Below are positions 21,664 through 30,627 of a stretch of 33,152 nucleotides of DNA, piece by piece; position 1 is the stretch's first letter, and each line of letters begins with the position of its first letter. The notes under the pieces were generated by a model. It saw only the letters and a list, made by a program, of their open reading frames with translations, was not told the origin of the DNA and did no database searches. Source of the stretch: Planctomicrobium piriforme (GTDB lineage Bacteria; Planctomycetota; Planctomycetia; Pirellulales; UBA1268); assembly GCA_945869735.1 (NCBI GenBank), contig CAMBPQ010000031.1:1-33152 (forward strand), in the 5' to 3' direction. The translations under genes were made by a program, and so were the position numbers.

Positions 21664-22194
21664 CTACGCTCTATCGAGGGCGGCAATGACGTCGGCCGGC
21701 AACATGGCCGCGAGCTGTGGATGGGCTTCGACGAGCCGGGCGATGTCGCCGAGATCCTTGATTGCTTTGCTGGTCCGCCGTTCGGGTGTTCGCCAGGCCT
21801 TGATCTTGCCCGCCAGCGTATCTGGGAGTGAGGCCACCCGCAGAAGAATCCCATGCACGTCGGCCGCCACGGCGCGGGCAGGAAAGTCGCGATAGAAATC
21901 TTCCGTGCTCAGTTGCAGGCTCACCTGCGACCGGCCGCGAAAGTTCACCGACCACTCGTGTCGTTCGACCATGAAGCCGACGGCCTCCAGGGCGGCGACC
22001 GCACGGGCAATCTCCTCGACTGCAACGACAAAGTCGACATCCCGCGTGACCATAGGCTCGGCAGCCCAGTGGTTCACGGCGATGCCGCCGATCGCGCACC
22101 AGTGCAGTTCGGCCCGCTCGAGCGCATCAACCATGCGCATCACGTCGTCCGCGCCGCCGGCCGTCTGCCAATCGTAGAATTGTCGCCCAGTCAT
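21664..22194 (-). CDS. Nucleotidyltransferase-superfamily protein
   Basis: A 176-residue protein with a nucleotidyltransferase fold signature: CAIGGIAVNHW (G36, G37), then RDVDFVV with D52 and D54 as the presumptive metal ligands, in the G-G...D-x-D spacing of MNT, AbiEii and DUF6036-like proteins. The C-terminal half (QLSTEDFYRDF, then VHGILLRVAS, KIKAWRTPER, KDLGDIARLVE) resembles the helper region that orders the substrate in that group. Such proteins often act as antitoxin or toxin halves, but no obvious partner is adjacent, so the role is open. The ATG at 22194 fits the fold start; longer readings upstream are in non-coding-looking sequence. A truncated relative sits at 1825-2109. It is convergent with gcvP (38-bp gap). 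Confidence 0.78.
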   Translation of the reverse strand: MTGRQFYDWQTAGGADDVMRMVDALERAELHWCAIGGIAVNHWAAEPMVTRDVDFVVAVEEIARAVAALEAVGFMVERHEWSVNFRGRSQVSLQLSTEDFYRDFPARAVAADVHGILLRVASLPDTLAGKIKAWRTPERRTSKAIKDLGDIARLVEAHPQLAAMLPADVIAALDRA

Positions 22195-22373
22195 GGGGCC
22201 GATTGTACGCAGCGTTCGATGCGCCTGCCGAATCCGGCCCGTGAAGGATTGGCTGCCAGGGGCTGCCGCCAGTCGCCACCGGTTCGTTTGCCGAGGTGTG
22301 TCAGGATCTTTCCGATGGAGCTTTGGCTCCGTGATGAGGGATTCCGGCCAAAGGTGTCGCAGCACTGGTTCCG

Positions 22374-23117
22374 TCAGGGGGTTCCAGCTCCGGGAACGTC
22401 GACCTCGACGACTTGGAGGCTCGCGCTCGGATGTCGCAGGATCTCTGCCGGATCGTGCGACGCTGACGTGCTGATGAAGAGGTGTCTCCGCTCTGGCCCG
22501 CCCAGCATCACCGCATAGGCATGGGTGGCAACTTGGATCCGATCCGTGATTTCCCCACCTTCGCGGACCCGTACCACACTGTCGGCCCCCTCGGGATTGG
22601 CGCACCAGACTGCGCCGTCGGCGTCGAGGCCGATGCCGTCGGGGGTGATCACCATGCCATTCGGAAAGAAGAGCTTGTCGGAGACGACAGATGCACCACC
22701 ATCCTGGCCGACGAGGACAATGACACACGTTTCAACGGGCTCGGCTTTCGGATCGATGAAGTTGTAGCCGATGTCTCCCACGTACAGACGGCCTCGTGCA
22801 TCGACGATGCCATCGCTCAGGCAAAACATCGTGAGACTGCCAATGTCGGCAGTCTGTTCCAGTTTGCCTGCCGCCTTGCGATAAATCTTCCGATGAAACG
22901 CGTCGCCAACCACGATTGTTCCCTCGGGAGTGAGTCCGAAGGCATTCGGGATGAATGGCACTTCCAGTACCGTTGCCACACAACCCGAGGGGTCCACCGT
23001 CTTGATGCGTTTTTCGTGGATGTCGATGAACCATAGCTTTCCGTCGTGCCACCGGGGGCTCTCGGTGAACTTCAGGCCCTTCGTCGCATCAGCCAGTGTC
23101 TTGAGAGGGCTTGGCAT
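22374..23117 (-). CDS. SMP-30/gluconolactonase family protein with internal deletion
   Basis: A 247-residue six-bladed beta-propeller protein of the SMP-30/gluconolactonase/LRE family, which hydrolyses sugar lactones with a divalent metal. The first metal ligand is the Glu in KFTESPRW, the next is in the LFFPNGMVITPDG region (Asn), and the third is the Asp of PDG. In the family about 40-50 residues separate the NGM....PDG strand from the later PDG..LDA.GAVW strand. Here they are joined directly as TPDGIGLDADGAVWCANPEG, so one blade is largely missing. The reading frame is intact, but activity is doubtful. The ATG at 23117 starts near the conserved Glu motif. The 22195-22373 gap holds a small hairpin (ggagc tttg gctcc, 22317-22330) and nothing else I can support. 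Confidence 0.8.
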   Translation of the reverse strand: MPSPLKTLADATKGLKFTESPRWHDGKLWFIDIHEKRIKTVDPSGCVATVLEVPFIPNAFGLTPEGTIVVGDAFHRKIYRKAAGKLEQTADIGSLTMFCLSDGIVDARGRLYVGDIGYNFIDPKAEPVETCVIVLVGQDGGASVVSDKLFFPNGMVITPDGIGLDADGAVWCANPEGADSVVRVREGGEITDRIQVATHAYAVMLGGPERRHLFISTSASHDPAEILRHPSASLQVVEVDVPGAGTP

Positions 23118-23905: not shown

Positions 23906-25177
23906 CTACCGCAGGCGGCGAAGGAGCCACCAGCCGGCGAGGAGCTGGAGAAGCAGCGCGGTCAGGCCGGTGCGGGGATCGTTGGTGAGGACCTGCACGC
24001 TGCCGAAGGCGAGGCTGGCGACGAAGCCCGTGAGTTTTGTCCCCACCTGCATGAGCCCAAACGTCACCCCTGCCCTGCCCTGCGGAGCCAGCGTGGCGAT
24101 CGTGGCACGGATCACACTCTGCACACCGCCGAGCACAATGGCCAGCAGTACGGCGAGCGCGTGAAGTTGCGTGGGTGTGCGAATAAAGCATGCTAGCACG
24201 AGCACCGTGACCCAGCCGGCGAGTGAGATGGCGAGTCCCCAGGCCCTGCCGTAGCGCGAGGAGAGCCAGCCGATGGCGAGCGCGCCGGGAAGGGCCACTG
24301 CCTGCACGAGGAGGACGAGCCGGACGAGTGCCGGGCCATCGAGGTTGAACTGCTCGAGCGCCACGCTCGAGAACTGCGCGATCGCTGTCTGAACCGCCCC
24401 GAGCACGAGCACCGCCCCGAGGAGGATGCTGCCCAGGTTTTGTGACGCATCGTCGTCGGGTGTTGGGCGGGCAAGGGAGCGGGCGAAGGCGAGTAGTTCG
24501 CCACCCGACGTCGCGGCATGCCGCTCGCGTTCGCCGTCCCCGAAGCGGGCGAAGGCAGCCGGCAGCGAGAAAATGAGCCACCACGCGGCCGTCAGCGCGA
24601 AGGCGACCCGCAGGCCTTCGCTGGCGGTGAGGCCGAGGCGGTCGTGGGCCGCCACGACCGCGGTGGCCGCGATCAGTGCGATCGCGCCGCCGGCGTATCC
24701 CGCCGCGAATCCCCAAGCGGAGAGCCGGTCGGCGTCGCGGCCGCCGGCGATCCTCGCCAACAGGCTGCCGGTGAAGATTGCCGCCATGTCGAAGCCCACG
24801 GCGGCGGCGGTGATCGACGCCGCGACGGCGAGCCGCGCCGTGGAAGGCACGAGAGCGAGCAGGAGGAGACCGCCGGCCCCGGCGGCGACGCTGGTGAGCA
24901 GTGCCTGCTTGTGGCCGCGTGTCCGATCAGCCCACGCGGCGACCCACGGGGCCAGCACCGCCGAGGCCAGCATCGCGGCCGCCAGCGTCCAGGCCCAGAC
25001 AACGCCGGCCGACACGCCCCAGACACGGTCCACAAACACGACCCGTTCGACGTAGGCCACGACAAGCGTGATCAACACGGTCGAGAAGGCGCTCGCCGCC
25101 CAGTCAAGCAGGATCCAGGCGGTCCGGGCGAAGCCCTCGGAATCGCGAACAGGCTTGCCACTCAATCGCAGAGCCAT
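23906..25177 (-). CDS. MFS transporter of the Atg22/UMF1 type
   Basis: A 423-residue transporter with about 12 hydrophobic segments. The start SEGFARTAWILLDWAASAF resembles the Atg22/UMF1 family's conserved W..YDWA(N/S)SAF, and WADRTRGHKQALL after TM2 is the MFS loop 2-3 signature. The second half carries YGRAWGLAISLAGWV and VQSVIRATIATLAPQGRAGV, the equivalent of the family's Q...R(S/A)......P....FFG motif, with TFGLMQVGTKLTGF. Substrate is unknown (fungal Atg22 exports amino acids from vacuoles). The ATG at 25177 lies inside the end of the preceding gene (16-bp overlap), so translation is coupled. It ends the four-gene run. Confidence 0.85.
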   Translation of the reverse strand: MALRLSGKPVRDSEGFARTAWILLDWAASAFSTVLITLVVAYVERVVFVDRVWGVSAGVVWAWTLAAAMLASAVLAPWVAAWADRTRGHKQALLTSVAAGAGGLLLLALVPSTARLAVAASITAAAVGFDMAAIFTGSLLARIAGGRDADRLSAWGFAAGYAGGAIALIAATAVVAAHDRLGLTASEGLRVAFALTAAWWLIFSLPAAFARFGDGERERHAATSGGELLAFARSLARPTPDDDASQNLGSILLGAVLVLGAVQTAIAQFSSVALEQFNLDGPALVRLVLLVQAVALPGALAIGWLSSRYGRAWGLAISLAGWVTVLVLACFIRTPTQLHALAVLLAIVLGGVQSVIRATIATLAPQGRAGVTFGLMQVGTKLTGFVASLAFGSVQVLTNDPRTGLTALLLQLLAGWWLLRRLR

Positions 25178-26307
25178 CGCAGCAACGTCTCCACGGTCGG
25201 TGCCCTGACACGGTCGATGAAGGCGAAGACCGCGGAGGCCACGGCGAGAAACACGAAGGCCAGCACGAGCGACATGCTGGGCGGCATCGCGATCTGCCAC
25301 AGCGACGTCGGCTCTTCTGTCGTCGCCGCGCCGATCAGCCACAGCGGCCAGAGGTGCACGACGTGGTGGAGCAGGTAGAGCGAAAGCGAATGCCGGCTGA
25401 TCATGGCAGCCCAGTCGAGGATGCGAGCCTGCCAGCCGTTGGCGCTGCGTGCCGTCCGGAGGTCGACCGTGCGATGGAGCAAGGTGGCGGCGAGGATCGT
25501 TGCTCCGAGGGTGCCGAGCACGTAGGTCGTCGTGGCGGGAAACATCGTCCATGGGCTGGACGTGGTGACAAGGCTGGCCGGCAGCCACGGTCGCACGAGG
25601 ACCGTGGCCAGTGCCGCGAGCAGGAGCGCGGCCCCGATCATGGCCGGCCGCAACCGCTGGAGGACTGTCGGTGGGGAAAAAATCGAGACTGACGCCAGGA
25701 AGCCCGCGATCGGGAACACGAGCCAGGGAAAGATCGGGAAGAATCCAGTCACGAGGAATCCGAGCACGACGTCGCCGAGCGTGAAGTCATAGTCAAAGTA
25801 GCCCGCGGTCCAGTAGTCGCCGTAGCCGGCGATCAGCCGCAACACGGGTGCGAGCGTGACGAGTATCCCGCAGGCGACCAGCGGCACCGCGGGGGGCAAC
25901 CGCCGCACAACGTCGAGCACGATCAGGGCAGCGCCGATGAAGGTGAGGATGTCCCAGTTGAAGACGTCTTCGGGCATCCAGACGGCCACGTTGAAGACGA
26001 GTCCGAGGAGAATCAGAAACAGTCCGCGGCGGATCGTGGCCTTCGAGATGGCGTCGGTGTCGCGGCCGCGGCGTTCCTGTCCAACGACCCAGAATCGGTA
26101 GCTTGCGCCCGACAGAAACGTGAACAACGGCGCGGCGAAGCCCGTCGGGAGCCACCAGTAACGATAGGCTCCGAGCAAGGGACCACCGTCGGCCCCGTAG
26201 GCGCCGGAGAGGTTTTCCACGAAGTGCACGGTCACCATCAGTACGATGGCGACCGCGCGCAAGACGTCGATCGATGGTTGCCGCGCCGCGGTGCTGCCCG
26301 GCTTCAT
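25162..26307 (-). CDS. DUF1624/heparan-glucosaminide acetyltransferase-like membrane protein
   Basis: A 381-residue membrane protein that starts with ...QPSIDVLRAVAIVLMVTVHF, the hallmark R(S)...D..RG.....M...H first helix of DUF1624/YeiB-like acyltransferases. It continues with FTFLSGASYRFW, RRGLFLILLGLVFNV, NWDILTFIGAALIVLDVVR (order I..Y..L..IG.....L), FFPIFPWLVFPIAGFLAS, and a C-terminal SRHSLSLYLLHH. Roughly ten helices are visible. The family likely transfers acyl groups across the membrane; no substrate can be given. Its ATG (26307) overlaps the stop of the RMD1-like gene as ATGA, and its end overlaps the transporter start. Confidence 0.8.
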   Translation of the reverse strand: MKPGSTAARQPSIDVLRAVAIVLMVTVHFVENLSGAYGADGGPLLGAYRYWWLPTGFAAPLFTFLSGASYRFWVVGQERRGRDTDAISKATIRRGLFLILLGLVFNVAVWMPEDVFNWDILTFIGAALIVLDVVRRLPPAVPLVACGILVTLAPVLRLIAGYGDYWTAGYFDYDFTLGDVVLGFLVTGFFPIFPWLVFPIAGFLASVSIFSPPTVLQRLRPAMIGAALLLAALATVLVRPWLPASLVTTSSPWTMFPATTTYVLGTLGATILAATLLHRTVDLRTARSANGWQARILDWAAMISRHSLSLYLLHHVVHLWPLWLIGAATTEEPTSLWQIAMPPSMSLVLAFVFLAVASAVFAFIDRVRAPTVETLLRWLCD

Positions 26308-27143
26308 GTCGTCCGCACCGCAAGGAGGCCGACGACGAGCAGCATCAGCTCCGCGGCGAGCAGGAGGATGATCACCCACTCGAGGATCGCGTGGCGGCGC
26401 GAGACTGCGTAGTCTCCGACACGATCGGCGCACGCAAAATAGACCCGCTCGAGGAGTTCGGCCTGGTCGACCGCAGACTCGAGCCGCTCGACGATCCGGG
26501 TACGGTCACGGAGCCGCTCGCCGAGCTGGCCCGCCAGCGTGGGTGGCTGAGGGGCGGGCCGCTGCACGGCCGGCGCGAGCATCGCAAGCCGGCGCCGCAG
26601 GGAGACGGCCTGACTGAATCGTGCGGCCAGGTCGCCGCGGCGAGGCAGGGCCCGCTCGTCGAAATGAAAGGCCAGCGGGGCGTCGGCATCCACGTGGGCC
26701 AGAGCCTCGGTGATTTGGGATTCGACGTCGCGGAGTTCGGCGTCGTGGCCGGCGAACTCGACCACGGCGGCCCGCATCTGCGGCAGTCGTTCCGGTGGCC
26801 CGATGATGGCGGCCCGCCGCGGGCTCCAGACCATGTGCGTGCCGTAGAGCGGCACCACGGTGACGGCTGCGGCGGCGGTGAGACCCGCGGCGGCGGTAAG
26901 ACTAGCGGCAGCGGTCGTCTCGTTCGCGGCAGCCCATGCCGCCGCGCGGGCTACCACGTCTGCGATCTTGGCGTCGTGAGCGACCACATCGTCGGCGTCC
27001 ACAGCCGACCGGGCGACGCTCGCGAGTTGGAACGTCCCGCCGCAGGCAAGTGTGATCCGCTCGATGTCCGCGTCGGGAGGCAGGCCGCTGGCCGCCGCAG
27101 GTCCGGCGGATGGGGCGGCGAGGTCGTGATGCGTTGTGATCAT
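26304..27143 (-). CDS. RMD1/DUF155-like protein with C-terminal membrane anchor
   Basis: A 279-residue protein. The C-terminal half has the DUF155 (RMD1/YagE) order: LAARFSQAVSLRRRLAML, a central charged helix LGERLRDRTRIVERLESAVD, then SRRHAILEWVIILLLAAELMLLVVG-type sequence, a single membrane helix (about 252-275) following a conserved R...LEW motif. The N-terminal half is more diverged and includes an alanine-rich repeat (about 76-93) and a WSPRRAAIIG stretch. In eukaryotes RMD1 proteins are organelle-membrane proteins; bacterial function is unknown. ATG 27143 lies 21 bp after the FAD oxidoreductase stop. Assignment to DUF155 depends mainly on the C-terminus. Confidence 0.6.
   Translation of the reverse strand: MITTHHDLAAPSAGPAAASGLPPDADIERITLACGGTFQLASVARSAVDADDVVAHDAKIADVVARAAAWAAANETTAAASLTAAAGLTAAAAVTVVPLYGTHMVWSPRRAAIIGPPERLPQMRAAVVEFAGHDAELRDVESQITEALAHVDADAPLAFHFDERALPRRGDLAARFSQAVSLRRRLAMLAPAVQRPAPQPPTLAGQLGERLRDRTRIVERLESAVDQAELLERVYFACADRVGDYAVSRRHAILEWVIILLLAAELMLLVVGLLAVRTT
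26866..26919. repeat. 18-bp in-frame tandem repeat in the RMD1-like gene
   Basis: Three 18-bp units (26866-26883, 26884-26901, 26902-26919) share a gcggcggcggt core and encode six-residue Thr/Leu-Ala-rich units (TTAAAS, LTAAAG, LTAAAA) on the minus strand. The first two units read on the plus strand differ at three bases or so; the third has diverged. It is a length-variable candidate that keeps frame. Confidence 0.7.
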
Positions 27144-27164
27144 GGGAGTCCTTCCCGGAGAGTC

Positions 27165-28535
27165 TCAAACAGCAGTGAGCGCGGCCAGCCATCCGGCCAC
27201 GTGGTCGGCCGAATCGAGCACACCGTTGAGCGTGGAGTCGTAGAGGTAGTCTCCCACAACGAAGAGTTGCGGGTGATCGATTGGTTCTGGCTGGTGTCGC
27301 CGGTCGATGCCCGGCGGCCGCCAGCCACCCGGCAGGCTGCTCACGGCCCCAGCCCAGCGGTGAACGCGGGCTTCGACGAGTCGCGACCGAGCCTGGTGGA
27401 ATGCCGGCGGCAGCGAGTCGAGCGCCAAGGAGATCAGGTGCTCGTCGTTGTCCTCGGCCATCTCGACCGCAGCCCGGCCTCCGAGGAGCCAACCCAGCAC
27501 ACCGTGCCGCGACTCCGGCTCGCGTGACGACTCGTCGTAGAGGCAGCAGCCTCCGAAGGCGTCGAGCATGAGGTAGGAGCCGTCGATCGTGCCGCGCCAA
27601 AAGGGTTCTTCGAAGAGCGCCGTGATCCGGAGGTAATGTGCGGGATGATCGTGCTCCTCGCAGTGTCTCCGCATCGCGGCGGCCAACCGAGCGCCTTCGA
27701 AGGTGAGGGCTGTGATGTGCTGGATCGGCAGGGCGACGACCACGGCATCGAAATTCGTGGTGAGCTCCCGCCCGGCTGCCTGCGCGGTGATTCGGAGTGA
27801 TCCTGCGGTACCGCTTCCAATGGACGTGACACGCGTGCCCAGCCGCACCGTGGCGTCGATGCGGGCCACGATGGCGGCGATCAACTGGTCGTTTCCGCCG
27901 GCGATGCTGTAGAGACGCATGTAGGCGGGGTCGTTCATGAGGTAGTTCTGCAGGCCGTACGACGCGCTGGTGAGCGCAGGCTCGGTCGCCAGATCGCTGT
28001 GGATCAGCGTCTCCACGTAACGCCGCACGGCCGGGGTGTTGATCTGGTCAAGCACGCGGGTGAACACGGCCGGGGCCGCGGGCTGGCCGTCGTCAGACGA
28101 GTAGAACTCCCGCGGAGTCATGCCACCGCGGGCGTGGTTGTCAAACTCCAGCAGGTCACGGTGGGCATCGTGTCCCAGCGAATCGGCGATGTCGTCGAGG
28201 TTCGACAGCGGCTGGCCGCCCATGATCACCGAGGCTCCGCCCAAGGGCGTGGTCGGCAATCCGAGTTCGGCCACGAGGCCACGAAGCGGGTCCGCGCCCA
28301 CCGGCGTGTAGTCATAAAACTCGGCGGCACCGGCCTCGTACCGGACCGGTGCGGCCGAGAAGGTGGGGGTGAGGATCTTGCCGCCGAGGCGACCGCTTGC
28401 CTCGAAGATCGTCGTCCGGATGGGCCGGCTTGCGGACCGCTGCAGAAACAAGGCGGTGAGCAGGCCGCCAGGACCGCCACCGACGATGGCGACGCTCGAT
28501 GCCCGTCCCGGATCGTCCTCTGGGGATGCAATCAC
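27165..28535 (-). CDS. FAD-dependent amine-oxidase-like oxidoreductase
   Basis: A protein of about 456 residues in the flavin amine oxidase/protoporphyrinogen oxidase superfamily. The dinucleotide motif VAIVGGGPGG (15-24) is followed by the ribose-binding Glu in IFEASGRLGGKI and an RYEAGAAEFYDY segment. A later VVVALPIQHI strand and a C-terminal HPQLFVVGDYLYDSTLNGVLDSADHVAGWL motif, which normally closes over the FAD, are typical. No substrate is clear: neither an amine-oxidase aromatic cage nor a carotenoid-type region is recognised. The GTG at 28535 is the best start near the Rossmann motif, but no strong ribosome binding site is visible. It opens the four-gene minus-strand run (gap to the next gene 21 bp). 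Confidence 0.82.
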   Translation of the reverse strand: MIASPEDDPGRASSVAIVGGGPGGLLTALFLQRSASRPIRTTIFEASGRLGGKILTPTFSAAPVRYEAGAAEFYDYTPVGADPLRGLVAELGLPTTPLGGASVIMGGQPLSNLDDIADSLGHDAHRDLLEFDNHARGGMTPREFYSSDDGQPAAPAVFTRVLDQINTPAVRRYVETLIHSDLATEPALTSASYGLQNYLMNDPAYMRLYSIAGGNDQLIAAIVARIDATVRLGTRVTSIGSGTAGSLRITAQAAGRELTTNFDAVVVALPIQHITALTFEGARLAAAMRRHCEEHDHPAHYLRITALFEEPFWRGTIDGSYLMLDAFGGCCLYDESSREPESRHGVLGWLLGGRAAVEMAEDNDEHLISLALDSLPPAFHQARSRLVEARVHRWAGAVSSLPGGWRPPGIDRRHQPEPIDHPQLFVVGDYLYDSTLNGVLDSADHVAGWLAALTAV

Positions 28536-28581: not shown

Positions 28582-28833
28582 TTACGCGGCGGGAGCCCAG
28601 AGATGGAGCGTTCGCTCCGTCGGCACGCCATAGCGAACCTCGATCGGCAGTTCCGCCGGATCGGCCGGAGCCCCCACGATGGGCTTCATAGCCGTGACCG
28701 CCACGCGGGCAGCGTCGGGCAGTGGGCCTCGGTTGGCAAACCAGACCCAGCCGCTGAAGCCGATGATAGCCAGCACGGGAAGAAGGGCGCACGCAGGATG
28801 CGGACCCCAGAAGCCTTGGGCATTGGATCGCAT
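28582..28833 (-). CDS. Small single-pass membrane protein, unknown
   Basis: A minus-strand frame of about 83 residues from the ATG at 28833 has a hydrophobic segment ALLPVLAIIGFSGWVWFANR (about residues 15-34), then a soluble tail with LPDAARVAVTAMKPIVGAP and LPIEVRYGVPTERTLHLWAP. The frame stays open up to 28929, so a longer N-terminus is possible, but no start has a clear ribosome binding site. It fills the gap between the adenine deaminase stop (28960) and the FAD gene and is on the same strand. Family not recognised; support is the membrane helix and absence of a competing gene. Confidence 0.45.
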   Translation of the reverse strand: MRSNAQGFWGPHPACALLPVLAIIGFSGWVWFANRGPLPDAARVAVTAMKPIVGAPADPAELPIEVRYGVPTERTLHLWAPAA

Positions 28834-28959: not shown

Positions 28960-30627
28960 TCAGTCGAAAAGCCCCACCGGGCCGAAGGCGTCGACGTCGA
29001 ACAGTCCCTGCGGCCCGAGTTTGAGCGCGGGGATGACGAGCAGCGCCATGAAGGAGAGCGTCATGTAGGGGGCGGCGAGTCGCGTTCCCAGAGCCTTGGC
29101 CCGCCGGTCGATATCGGCGTAGGCGGCGGCCACTTCAACGCCCGGGCGGTCCGACATCAGGCCCGCGATCGGTAGTGGCAGGATGGCCTCGCCTCCGGGG
29201 CCGACGACCGACAGGCCTCCCTTGCCTGCAATCACGAGATTGACCGCACGGGCGAGATCGGTGTCGCTGGTGCCGACCGCCACGATGTTGTGGGAGTCGT
29301 GCGACACACTCGATGCGATTGCGCCCGCCGTCAGCCCGAAGTTGTGTACGAGCGCCACGGCTGGCGGCCGGTCGTCATACCGGTCCACAACCGCGATCTT
29401 CAGCACGTCGTCGGCGGGATTCGCCGAGAGGAAGCCCTCGACGACATGAGGCCGCATACGAAGCGAGCCGGTCACCAGTTGGCCATCGAGGGCCTCGATC
29501 ACCCGCACCATCCGGGCGGTGTCGCTCGCTGAAGCCCGAATCTCAAAATCGGCCGGCTGCTTGGGACTCGCCGCGAACCGGTTGGGCCGTGTGGATTCGA
29601 GCCGCGGCCATGTCGTCGCGCCATCGACCGCTGCCACAACGCCATCGACGAACACCCGGCGGATCCGCAGGCTTTCCAGATCGTCGACCTCGATGAAGTC
29701 GGCGGGATCGCCGACCTGCAGAAGCCCGATCGGGAGCCTGTAGTGTCTGGCGGGGTTGACCGATGCCGCCTGCAGCACGTCGAAGAGGTTGCTGCCGCGG
29801 GCGATCGCCCGGCGGACGAGCTGGTCGATGTGGCCGACGATGAGCTGATCGGGATGTTTGTCGTCGCTGCAGAGCATGCAGTGTTCGGGATGGGTGTCGA
29901 TCAGGCTCGCGAGGGCGTCGAAGTTGCGGGCCGCCGAGCCTTCGCGGATCAGGATCCTCATCCCGAGGGCGATCTTACCGAGGGCCTCGTCGAGCGTGAA
30001 GCACTCGTGGTCGGTGGAGATACCGGCCGCCGCGTAGCGGGCCGCCGCAGCGCCCCGGAGCCCAGGCGCGTGGCCGTCGATCGGCTTGCCGCGTGCCGTC
30101 GCCGCCGCCAGCTTGGCTACCACCTGCGGATCCCCGACGAGCACGCCGGGATAGTTCATCACCTCCGAGAGATACCCGACGTCCGGCCTGTCGAGCAGTG
30201 CCGCCACACCGGTGGCGTCGATCGTGGCCCCTGCGTGGTCGAAGACGGTCGCCGGCACGCACGACGGCGCCCCGAAGTGGAACTTGAAGGGCGAACGCCG
30301 CGCGTCGTCGAGCATGTATTCCACGCCTGCGATGCCGAGCACGTTGGCGATCTCGTGGGGATCGGAGACGGTGGCGACCGTGCCGTGGGCGACGGCCAGC
30401 CGCGCGAACTCCGTAGGCGGCAGAAGCGAGCTCTCGACGTGCACGTGGGCGTCGACGAAGCCCGGGAGGATCCAGGACGCATGCGGCCTAGGATCGTCGG
30501 AAATACACTCGATTCGGCCAGCCGCGATCGTGAGCGTGGCAGGCCGGATGCACCGTGCGACGGGATCGACGAGGTTGCCCGAGATCCTCCAGGGTGCGGG
30601 ATGCGGTGAGGACGCGGCGTCGTGCAT
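28960..30627 (-). CDS. ade: Adenine deaminase
   Basis: A 555-residue amidohydrolase that converts adenine to hypoxanthine in purine salvage. The metal site is WILPGFVDAHVHVESS (H61, H63), with VATVSDPHEIANVLG, the LSEVMNYPGV motif, GHAPGLRG, ISTDHECFTLDEA (His, Glu), and the SDDKHPDQL metal Asp region. The Ade-specific C-terminal domain is complete: RHHVEGF-like RPHVVEGFLS, SSVSHDSHNIVAVG, and ALKLGPQGLFD. This separates it from cytosine or dihydropyrimidine enzymes. It diverges from the FabZ-like gene across a gap of about 100 bp that shows no gene. Confidence 0.95.
   Translation of the reverse strand: MHDAASSPHPAPWRISGNLVDPVARCIRPATLTIAAGRIECISDDPRPHASWILPGFVDAHVHVESSLLPPTEFARLAVAHGTVATVSDPHEIANVLGIAGVEYMLDDARRSPFKFHFGAPSCVPATVFDHAGATIDATGVAALLDRPDVGYLSEVMNYPGVLVGDPQVVAKLAAATARGKPIDGHAPGLRGAAAARYAAAGISTDHECFTLDEALGKIALGMRILIREGSAARNFDALASLIDTHPEHCMLCSDDKHPDQLIVGHIDQLVRRAIARGSNLFDVLQAASVNPARHYRLPIGLLQVGDPADFIEVDDLESLRIRRVFVDGVVAAVDGATTWPRLESTRPNRFAASPKQPADFEIRASASDTARMVRVIEALDGQLVTGSLRMRPHVVEGFLSANPADDVLKIAVVDRYDDRPPAVALVHNFGLTAGAIASSVSHDSHNIVAVGTSDTDLARAVNLVIAGKGGLSVVGPGGEAILPLPIAGLMSDRPGVEVAAAYADIDRRAKALGTRLAAPYMTLSFMALLVIPALKLGPQGLFDVDAFGPVGLFD

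Follow-up and report, generated by a model that had tools for sequence, protein, structure and literature searches.

A conserved trio of genes for an amine-oxidase-fold flavoenzyme, a distant DUF155/RMD1 relative and a transmembrane acyltransferase in planctomycetes

The flavin amine oxidases (PF01593) comprise monoamine oxidase (MAO), polyamine oxidase (PAO), putrescine oxidase and L-amino-acid oxidase (LAAO). All PAOs share the lysine that is Lys300 in maize PAO, and it is also present in putrescine oxidase and MAOs (PMC7576179). Its equivalent in MAO A, Lys305, drives O2 reactivity and the K305R variant of this enzyme is inactive (PMC8009472). Among membrane acyltransferases, the TmAT superfamily, which includes HGSNAT (PF07786) and the AT3 proteins OafB and OatA, acylates cell-surface glycans and lipids (PMC12423673), and HGSNAT requires the residues H297 and D307 (PMC11199644). 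Operons described with PspA (PMC11237479) combine SpeD, a SpeE-like protein, a polyamine oxidase and DUF350 with membrane proteins.

The locus described below lies in a window (the whole stretch of DNA that was analysed) of 33,152 nucleotides and comprises the following genes:

Gene A, 27165..28535, minus strand: GTG start; FAD-dependent flavin amine oxidoreductase of 456 aa.
Gene B, 26304..27143, minus strand: protein of 279 aa with a single C-terminal TM helix, distant member of the DUF155/RMD1 superfamily.
Gene C, 25162..26307, minus strand: polytopic membrane acyltransferase of 381 aa, HGSNAT_cat (formerly DUF1624), TmAT superfamily.
Gene D, 23906..25177, minus strand: Atg22-like MFS transporter of 423 aa, accessory.
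Small one-TM protein gene (about 83 aa), 28582..28833, minus strand: possible extra 5' gene, 46 bp upstream of A.

The junctions re-derived from the sequence (A/B, +21 bp; B/C, -4 bp with ATGA; C/D, -16 bp), all on the minus strand, are identical to those on which the initial annotation based a four-gene operon. With an alternative TTG start of D, the C/D junction would become -4. The same annotation named A, C and D as an FAD oxidoreductase, a DUF1624-like protein and an Atg22-type transporter, and these assignments hold, PF01593, PF07786 and PF11700 all being reached above their cut-offs.

Gene A encodes a member of the flavin amine oxidases (92.3 bits against PF01593, Pfam cut-off 19.8), from which no obvious signal peptide could be read. 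It shares the fold and the FAD-binding motifs of these enzymes, and a Foldseek search with its structure model (pLDDT 84.8) gave LAAO, putrescine oxidase and MAO as the best matches (E 7e-24 and similar). The presence of putrescine oxidase and MAO among these structural neighbours was counted for the amine/polyamine model discussed below. However, A differs from the solved flavin amine oxidases by an identity of only 15-20% and from the family by its location in a predicted operon with a membrane acyltransferase. It also carries an arginine in place of the conserved lysine: Arg303, invariant in alignment A3, stands opposite the LAAO lysine in the HMMER alignment, so the catalytic lysine near flavin N5 that characterizes functional polyamine and monoamine oxidases is missing from A. 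The spacing from Arg303 to the PFW motif is presumably the same as in MAO. As judged from the sequence, this replacement argues against ordinary amine oxidation, while the inactivity of MAO A K305R could alternatively mean that A catalyses a wholly different reaction. Secondary matches of A to the PPOX and HpnE models were also found, and PPOX appears among the structural matches. HpnE, CrtI and PPOX are enzymes of the same superfamily that act as desaturases or dehydrogenases. Neither identity was retained for A, whose scores (34.5 for HpnE, 40.7 for PPOX) are far under the equivalog cut-offs of 283 and 517, respectively.

Gene B encodes a protein with an N-terminal alpha/beta part, long helices and a C-terminal TM helix (about residues 252-275), whose structure model has a pLDDT of 90. 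It gave no match in Pfam and NCBIfam, and none of the 25 B members matched PF02582 (DUF155; cut-off 27 bits) at E <= 1, so B is not a true DUF155/RMD1 family protein. By contrast, hhalign of B with DUF155 proteins gave a probability of 95.4 (E 2e-8), over the C-terminal 69 columns only, and the weak matches L162 and L165 retrieved by the B profile are true PF02582 proteins (106-125 bits). From this profile-profile similarity and reverse retrieval, B appears as a distant member of the DUF155/RMD1 superfamily in the wider sense; the RMD1/DUF155 label that it first received thus stands for the superfamily and not for the family. B shares the charged C-terminal helix and the tail anchor of the DUF155/RMD1/RMND1-Sif2-Sif3-Mrx10 proteins, whereas its N-terminal part is unalignable with them. 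Real DUF155 genes occur in unrelated contexts in G018 and G032, where A-B-C is absent. Structure searches with the B model returned CorA, ZntB and MRS2 among the highest-ranking proteins (Foldseek E 1.6e-3, rmsd 14). The Z values are 9.8-12.4, the highest over 120 residues; these lie within what long-helix models are stated to give, and unrelated helical proteins come close to them. Membership of the CorA Mg2+ channel family was rejected, since B has one C-terminal hydrophobic helix instead of two and no GMN motif. B is predicted to be a DUF155/RMD1 relative anchored C-terminally in the membrane, perhaps in a CorA-like arrangement.

The product of gene C reaches both PF07786 (HGSNAT_cat; 72.5 bits, cut-off 22) and PF01757 (52.9 bits, cut-off 31). 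Its invariant residues in alignment A4 are D14, R17, H28, F62, G67, R93, R94 and Y311, and the TmAT motifs DxxR, FxxxxG, TMH3-Arg and TMH9-Tyr (as given in PMC12423673) are kept. Score and motifs together place C in the PF07786/TmAT superfamily, and its sequence bears the predicted acyl-CoA-site hallmarks that transmembrane acyltransferases such as HGSNAT, OafB and OatA share. Unlike HGSNAT, C has no H297/D307 dyad by motif spacing, Gly56 occupying the D307 position in a loop without His; amine acylation does not follow, therefore, from this membership. Instead, the TMH1 histidine (H28) stands at what we take to be the HGSNAT N286 position, as in AT3 O-acyltransferases. Gene D encodes an Atg22-type MFS protein (83.0 bits against PF11700, cut-off 24.1; 54.4 bits against PF07690, cut-off 33.4).

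The contiguous, co-directional order A-B-C was found in 28 loci of the window's own taxonomic family and in four further loci that belong to other families of the phylum. Its junctions are short or overlapping (-4, -1, -8 or small positive gaps when re-made in the relatives), as expected of an operon. The order is thus not unique to this genome. The genes flanking the trio differ between loci while the trio itself persists, across families and classes. Moreover, the distances of A, B and C are correlated (Mantel r 0.90, 0.85 and 0.90; 0 of 2000 permutations as high). The conserved order and overlaps, the varying flanks and this correlated divergence indicate that A, B and C very probably have one shared, undescribed job, and a literature search found no described pathway with this set, in agreement with the initial annotation. 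The view that they are mere neighbours, co-transcribed without a shared function, could draw on the flanking genes that are also close in places, but the retention of the trio amid changing flanks and the coupled divergence make it highly improbable. The situation of D is different. It lies close behind C in eight of the 28 loci (the window, G009, G015, G021, G014, G017, G004 and G006), while in G012 it is found 914 bp from C with an opposite-strand gene between them. D is confined to part of the window's genus; in loci of the other genera, C has no D beside it. What is conserved is therefore a set of three genes and not of four, and D, excluded as a core member by its distribution, is an optional extra: the predicted operon structure and the shared function initially proposed for four genes stand for A-B-C, the latter with strong support, but do not extend to D. 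Two candidates for a replacement transporter were rejected, cluster c17, downstream in other genera, being a PQQ/BamB-like beta-propeller and the gene beside C in G025 being GlgC.

A and B also occur beyond the trio. The search of genome contigs gave no match with B alone and gave matches with a profile of A. A-B is found without C in L080, L099 and L100, and likewise in L097, which is truncated by the end of its contig. Alphaproteobacterial A is part of a fusion with a methyltransferase, and B usually follows this fusion gene. From these two arrangements, A-B is an older core than A-B-C. An ABC exporter lies behind A in Phreatobacter-type loci only, and no B was detected in these genomes. A search of plasmids with the L106 fusion and a search of phages with A gave no match.

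All four planctomycete B homologues without A are located directly behind a polyamine-type gene. This is speE (spermidine synthase) in L038, L082 and L083, with a 4-bp overlap between speE and B and an upstream speD in L038, and a homospermidine-synthase (HSS)-like gene, weakly matched (E 0.028 and 0.053), in L081. The three speE-B loci, few in number and partly related (speE 76% and 57% identical), may correspond to one or two independent events, and no further case was found in the class of G220. No polyamine gene adjoins A-B-C itself. A canonical polyamine pathway was also rejected for the f1 genomes: SpeY was found in 0 of 72, and a strong match to the spermidine-synthase domain in only 15 of 72, the window genome having none.

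With low confidence, we tentatively read A-B-C as a module of three genes whose products would carry out membrane-coupled chemistry on a single small molecule, most likely of amine or polyamine type. Cytoplasmic A would oxidise or desaturate the substrate and, as suggested by the Arg that replaces the O2-activating Lys, would pass the electrons to an acceptor other than O2; that a quinone or cytochrome receives them is purely conjectural. B, which would lie N-in by means of its tail helix, would be a putative dock for A at the membrane beside C, as it may be for SpeE elsewhere. C would take cytoplasmic acyl-CoA and acylate an acceptor at the outer face and, where present, D might export the product. 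The polyamine substrate is suggested by the alternative partners of B and is the weakest step of this model. The modification and export of a small molecule or lipid, as first proposed, fits in outline the predicted anatomy (flavoenzyme, acyl- or methyltransferase, sometimes an exporter), except that export is not constant.

It is possible, if doubtful, that the module modifies lipids or the envelope and handles no polyamine: A would be a desaturase or dehydrogenase acting on an isoprenoid, lipid or glycolipid, C would acylate its product outside and B would be a scaffold. The known acceptors of the superfamily of C (PMC12423673), the missing amine-oxidase Lys, the secondary PPOX/HpnE matches and PPOX structures, and the pairing of Alphaproteobacterial A with a methyltransferase or ABC exporter are consistent with such a role. 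However, A remains far under the HpnE and PPOX cut-offs, B homologues without A lie behind spermidine synthase and across genera no gene of a lipid pathway was observed as a recurrent neighbour of A-B-C. The same speE context, joined to the HGSNAT_cat score of C, could instead point to extracytoplasmic N-acetylation of an amine, whether a polyamine or another. A and C would then belong to one pathway, and C, working like HGSNAT, would pass the acetyl group of cytosolic acetyl-CoA to this external amine; the lack of the H297/D307 dyad (PMC11199644) makes this decidedly unlikely. Still less probable is a role of the operon in transport or membrane stress, with B as a CorA-type ion or polyamine channel or sensor and A and C as regulatory or protective enzymes. 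The CorA-type structural matches and the recurrence elsewhere of polyamine-metabolism genes with membrane-stress genes (PMC11237479) agree with it, but the single TM helix, the missing GMN motif and the unspecific Z values do not.

A further reading, unlikely when taken as a whole, is that B-type proteins are an undescribed DUF155/CorA-like offshoot of docking proteins that would recruit interchangeable amine-handling enzymes to the inner membrane. Their partners would be the Lys-less flavoenzyme, the flavoenzyme-methyltransferase fusion, spermidine synthase and the HSS-like dehydrogenase; in planctomycetes, the transmembrane acyltransferase would complete a new modified polyamine or aminolipid. 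The PspA-type operons share the theme of polyamine-type enzymes, including a flavin oxidase, with membrane proteins, but their DUF350, PspA and ATP-grasp partners were not identified at A-B-C, and the part of PMC11237479 considered here does not mention B or C.

With A-B-C, three poorly understood kinds of protein become open to testing together: an amine-oxidase-fold flavoenzyme with Arg for Lys, a distant bacterial RMND1 relative partnered with metabolic enzymes, and an acyltransferase that is bacterial and resembles HGSNAT. RMND1 is a disease-linked mitochondrial protein. Should B prove to be a membrane dock for amine enzymes, a function could be proposed for DUF155-like proteins generally. 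As for the small one-TM protein encoded upstream of A, a family search gave no match; its homologues lie directly 5' of A in G009, G004 and G010 (cluster c12), the gene being kept in the closest relatives only.

The initial annotation had described the genes at 23906-28535 as a four-gene membrane/redox operon of unknown purpose, with coupled translation that suggested a shared function. Re-reading of the window sequence upheld four minus-strand genes with spacings of +21 (A/B), -4 (B/C) and -16 bp (C/D), and Pfam scores agree with the families named for A, C and D. These genes and their neighbours are:

28535-27165, minus: A, flavin amine oxidoreductase (Pfam, 92.3 bits)
27143-26304, minus: B, no match in Pfam or NCBIfam
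26307-25162, minus: C, HGSNAT_cat, once called DUF1624 (Pfam, 72.5)
25177-23906, minus: D, Atg22/MFS (Pfam, 83.0)
28582-28833, minus: small one-TM protein gene between the adenine deaminase gene and A, no family match
28960-30627, minus: adenine deaminase gene upstream of A (cluster c4)
21664-22728, minus: ORF whose end resembles, on visual inspection, a minimal-nucleotidyltransferase protein (GGIAVNHW...TRDVDFVV)

In the window sequence, a good Shine-Dalgarno-like GGAAGGA precedes the ATG of B; C has no obvious Shine-Dalgarno and starts inside the stop of B (ATGA), as expected for coupled translation. Eight loci from the window's genus have the adenine deaminase gene upstream of A in the same orientation, and it may extend the transcription unit there. 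Homologues of the small one-TM gene are kept immediately upstream of A in genomes G009, G004 and G010.

The conserved unit is the trio A-B-C. When relatives were searched with B, 25 of 60 had it, most of them in the family of the window genome (f1), whose B loci have A upstream and C downstream. Once longer stretches had been fetched, contiguous A-B-C was counted in 28 f1 loci, the window included. Junctions vary yet remain tight, at -4 or about +21 bp for most A/B pairs and at -4 or +4 for B/C; the flanking gene families differ from genus to genus, and there is a strong correlation between the distances of the three genes (Mantel r 0.85-0.90). Among 392 sampled genomes of the phylum, A-B-C is kept at four loci from other families, and one further locus has A and B without C. 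The order is not unique to the window genome. Of the 28 loci, 8 have D close behind C, and these all belong to the window's genus, so that the proposed unit holds for A-B-C and not for D. A occurs in 35 of 72 f1 genomes and is missing from whole genera, its distribution thus being patchy. A-B-C is a real, conserved and apparently undescribed module, made of known superfamilies and one family for which Pfam and NCBIfam, the libraries searched, have no profile. A-B-C-D genes are also carried by L085, a contig titled Candidatus Kuenenia stuttgartiensis, a label that is probably wrong.

B had been called RMD1/DUF155-like. Membership of Pfam DUF155 is ruled out, since B has no Pfam match; the superfamily relation stands, as profile comparison matched B to true DUF155 proteins over the C-terminal 69 columns (E 2e-8). 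A broader B profile weakly retrieves these proteins via the same segment, and B may be read as an offshoot of the superfamily. Its structure model is confident (pLDDT 90), residues 217-278 forming one long helix with the single membrane segment at its end; the RRH immediately before this segment suggests an N-in, C-out tail anchor. CorA-type proteins are the top Foldseek matches, with Z up to 12.4, values common for long-helix models. Unlike CorA, B has one TM helix and lacks GMN, and the fold resemblance is unproven.

H28 of C is AT3-like: by spacing, it stands at the position of HGSNAT N286, where AT3 enzymes have His. Invariant residues of C (D14xxR17, F62xxxxG67, Arg93/94 of TMH3, Tyr311) fit the motifs of the TmAT superfamily (PMC12423673). 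Unlike HGSNAT, whose catalytic pair is His297-Asp307 (PMC11199644), C has no counterpart of this pair, judged by spacing. C is probably an active enzyme, and its acceptor need not be an amine.

Foldseek placed the model of A among L-amino-acid oxidases, putrescine oxidase, MAO and PPOX. An Arg of A lies opposite the conserved Lys in an alignment with an L-amino-acid oxidase; this Arg (R303) is invariant in 18 aligned members, and it is also seen in the Alphaproteobacterial and Acidobacterial sequences inspected. Lys300 of maize polyamine oxidase is a conserved residue throughout the polyamine oxidases, and putrescine oxidase and MAOs have it as well (PMC7576179). The equivalent Lys drives O2 reactivity in MAO A: the K305M mutant still oxidises amines, but its reoxidation by O2 is slow and it can use quinones; the K305R mutant is inactive (PMC8009472). 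This substitution and the behaviour of the mutants make an ordinary H2O2-producing amine oxidase unlikely; we infer a dehydrogenase or desaturase role.

All confident B homologues whose neighbourhood was read are either linked to A or behind a polyamine-type gene. Three of the four planctomycete homologues without A sit directly behind spermidine synthase (speE), each with a C-terminal TM helix:

L038:6936-9643: speE, then B homologue (4-bp overlap), with AdoMet decarboxylase (speD) upstream
L082:4951-6813: speE, then directly B homologue
L083:2301-4623: speE, then directly B homologue

The fourth (L081) follows a protein whose sole PDB match, a weak one, is homospermidine synthase (E 0.028; 0.053 with a two-sequence profile). 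Since the cases are few and those with speE are mutually related, the polyamine connection is a lead, not proof. SpeY is entirely absent from f1, and most f1 members, the window genome included, have no strong spermidine-synthase-domain match.

In the proposed model, A would work in the cytoplasm, B would tether it to the membrane, C would acylate an acceptor outside the cytoplasm and D, where present, would export; the conservation and the family assignments are observed, and substrate, docking, electron transfer and step order are what we infer. Comparable couplings, with different partners, have been reported for the surroundings of PspA, where polyamine genes, including a polyamine oxidase, are coupled with membrane proteins (PMC11237479).

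Run against named genomes, the A profile matched planctomycete MAGs (one titled Pirellulales), Alphaproteobacteria (Xanthobacter, Phreatobacter, Rhodoblastus, a Rhodospirillales MAG) and one Acidobacteria MAG. The Alphaproteobacterial A carries a fused SAM-methyltransferase domain, and a B homologue follows this fusion in Xanthobacter, Rhodoblastus, the Rhodospirillales MAG and genome G569; A-B is therefore probably older than A-B-C. B was not found in a search of Phreatobacter-type genomes, and in their loci L101 (checked by Pfam) and L102 an ABC exporter follows A-methyltransferase. Further arrangements are:

L168:6890-12294, minus: A-methyltransferase fusion, then B and a small secreted-looking protein (about 130-156 aa), twice in tandem, Alphaproteobacterial (G569)
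L107:4037-5458: another flavin amine oxidase gene, distinct from the first, shortly after the A-methyltransferase/B pair

A similar small secreted-looking protein is encoded behind B in L106 and L107.
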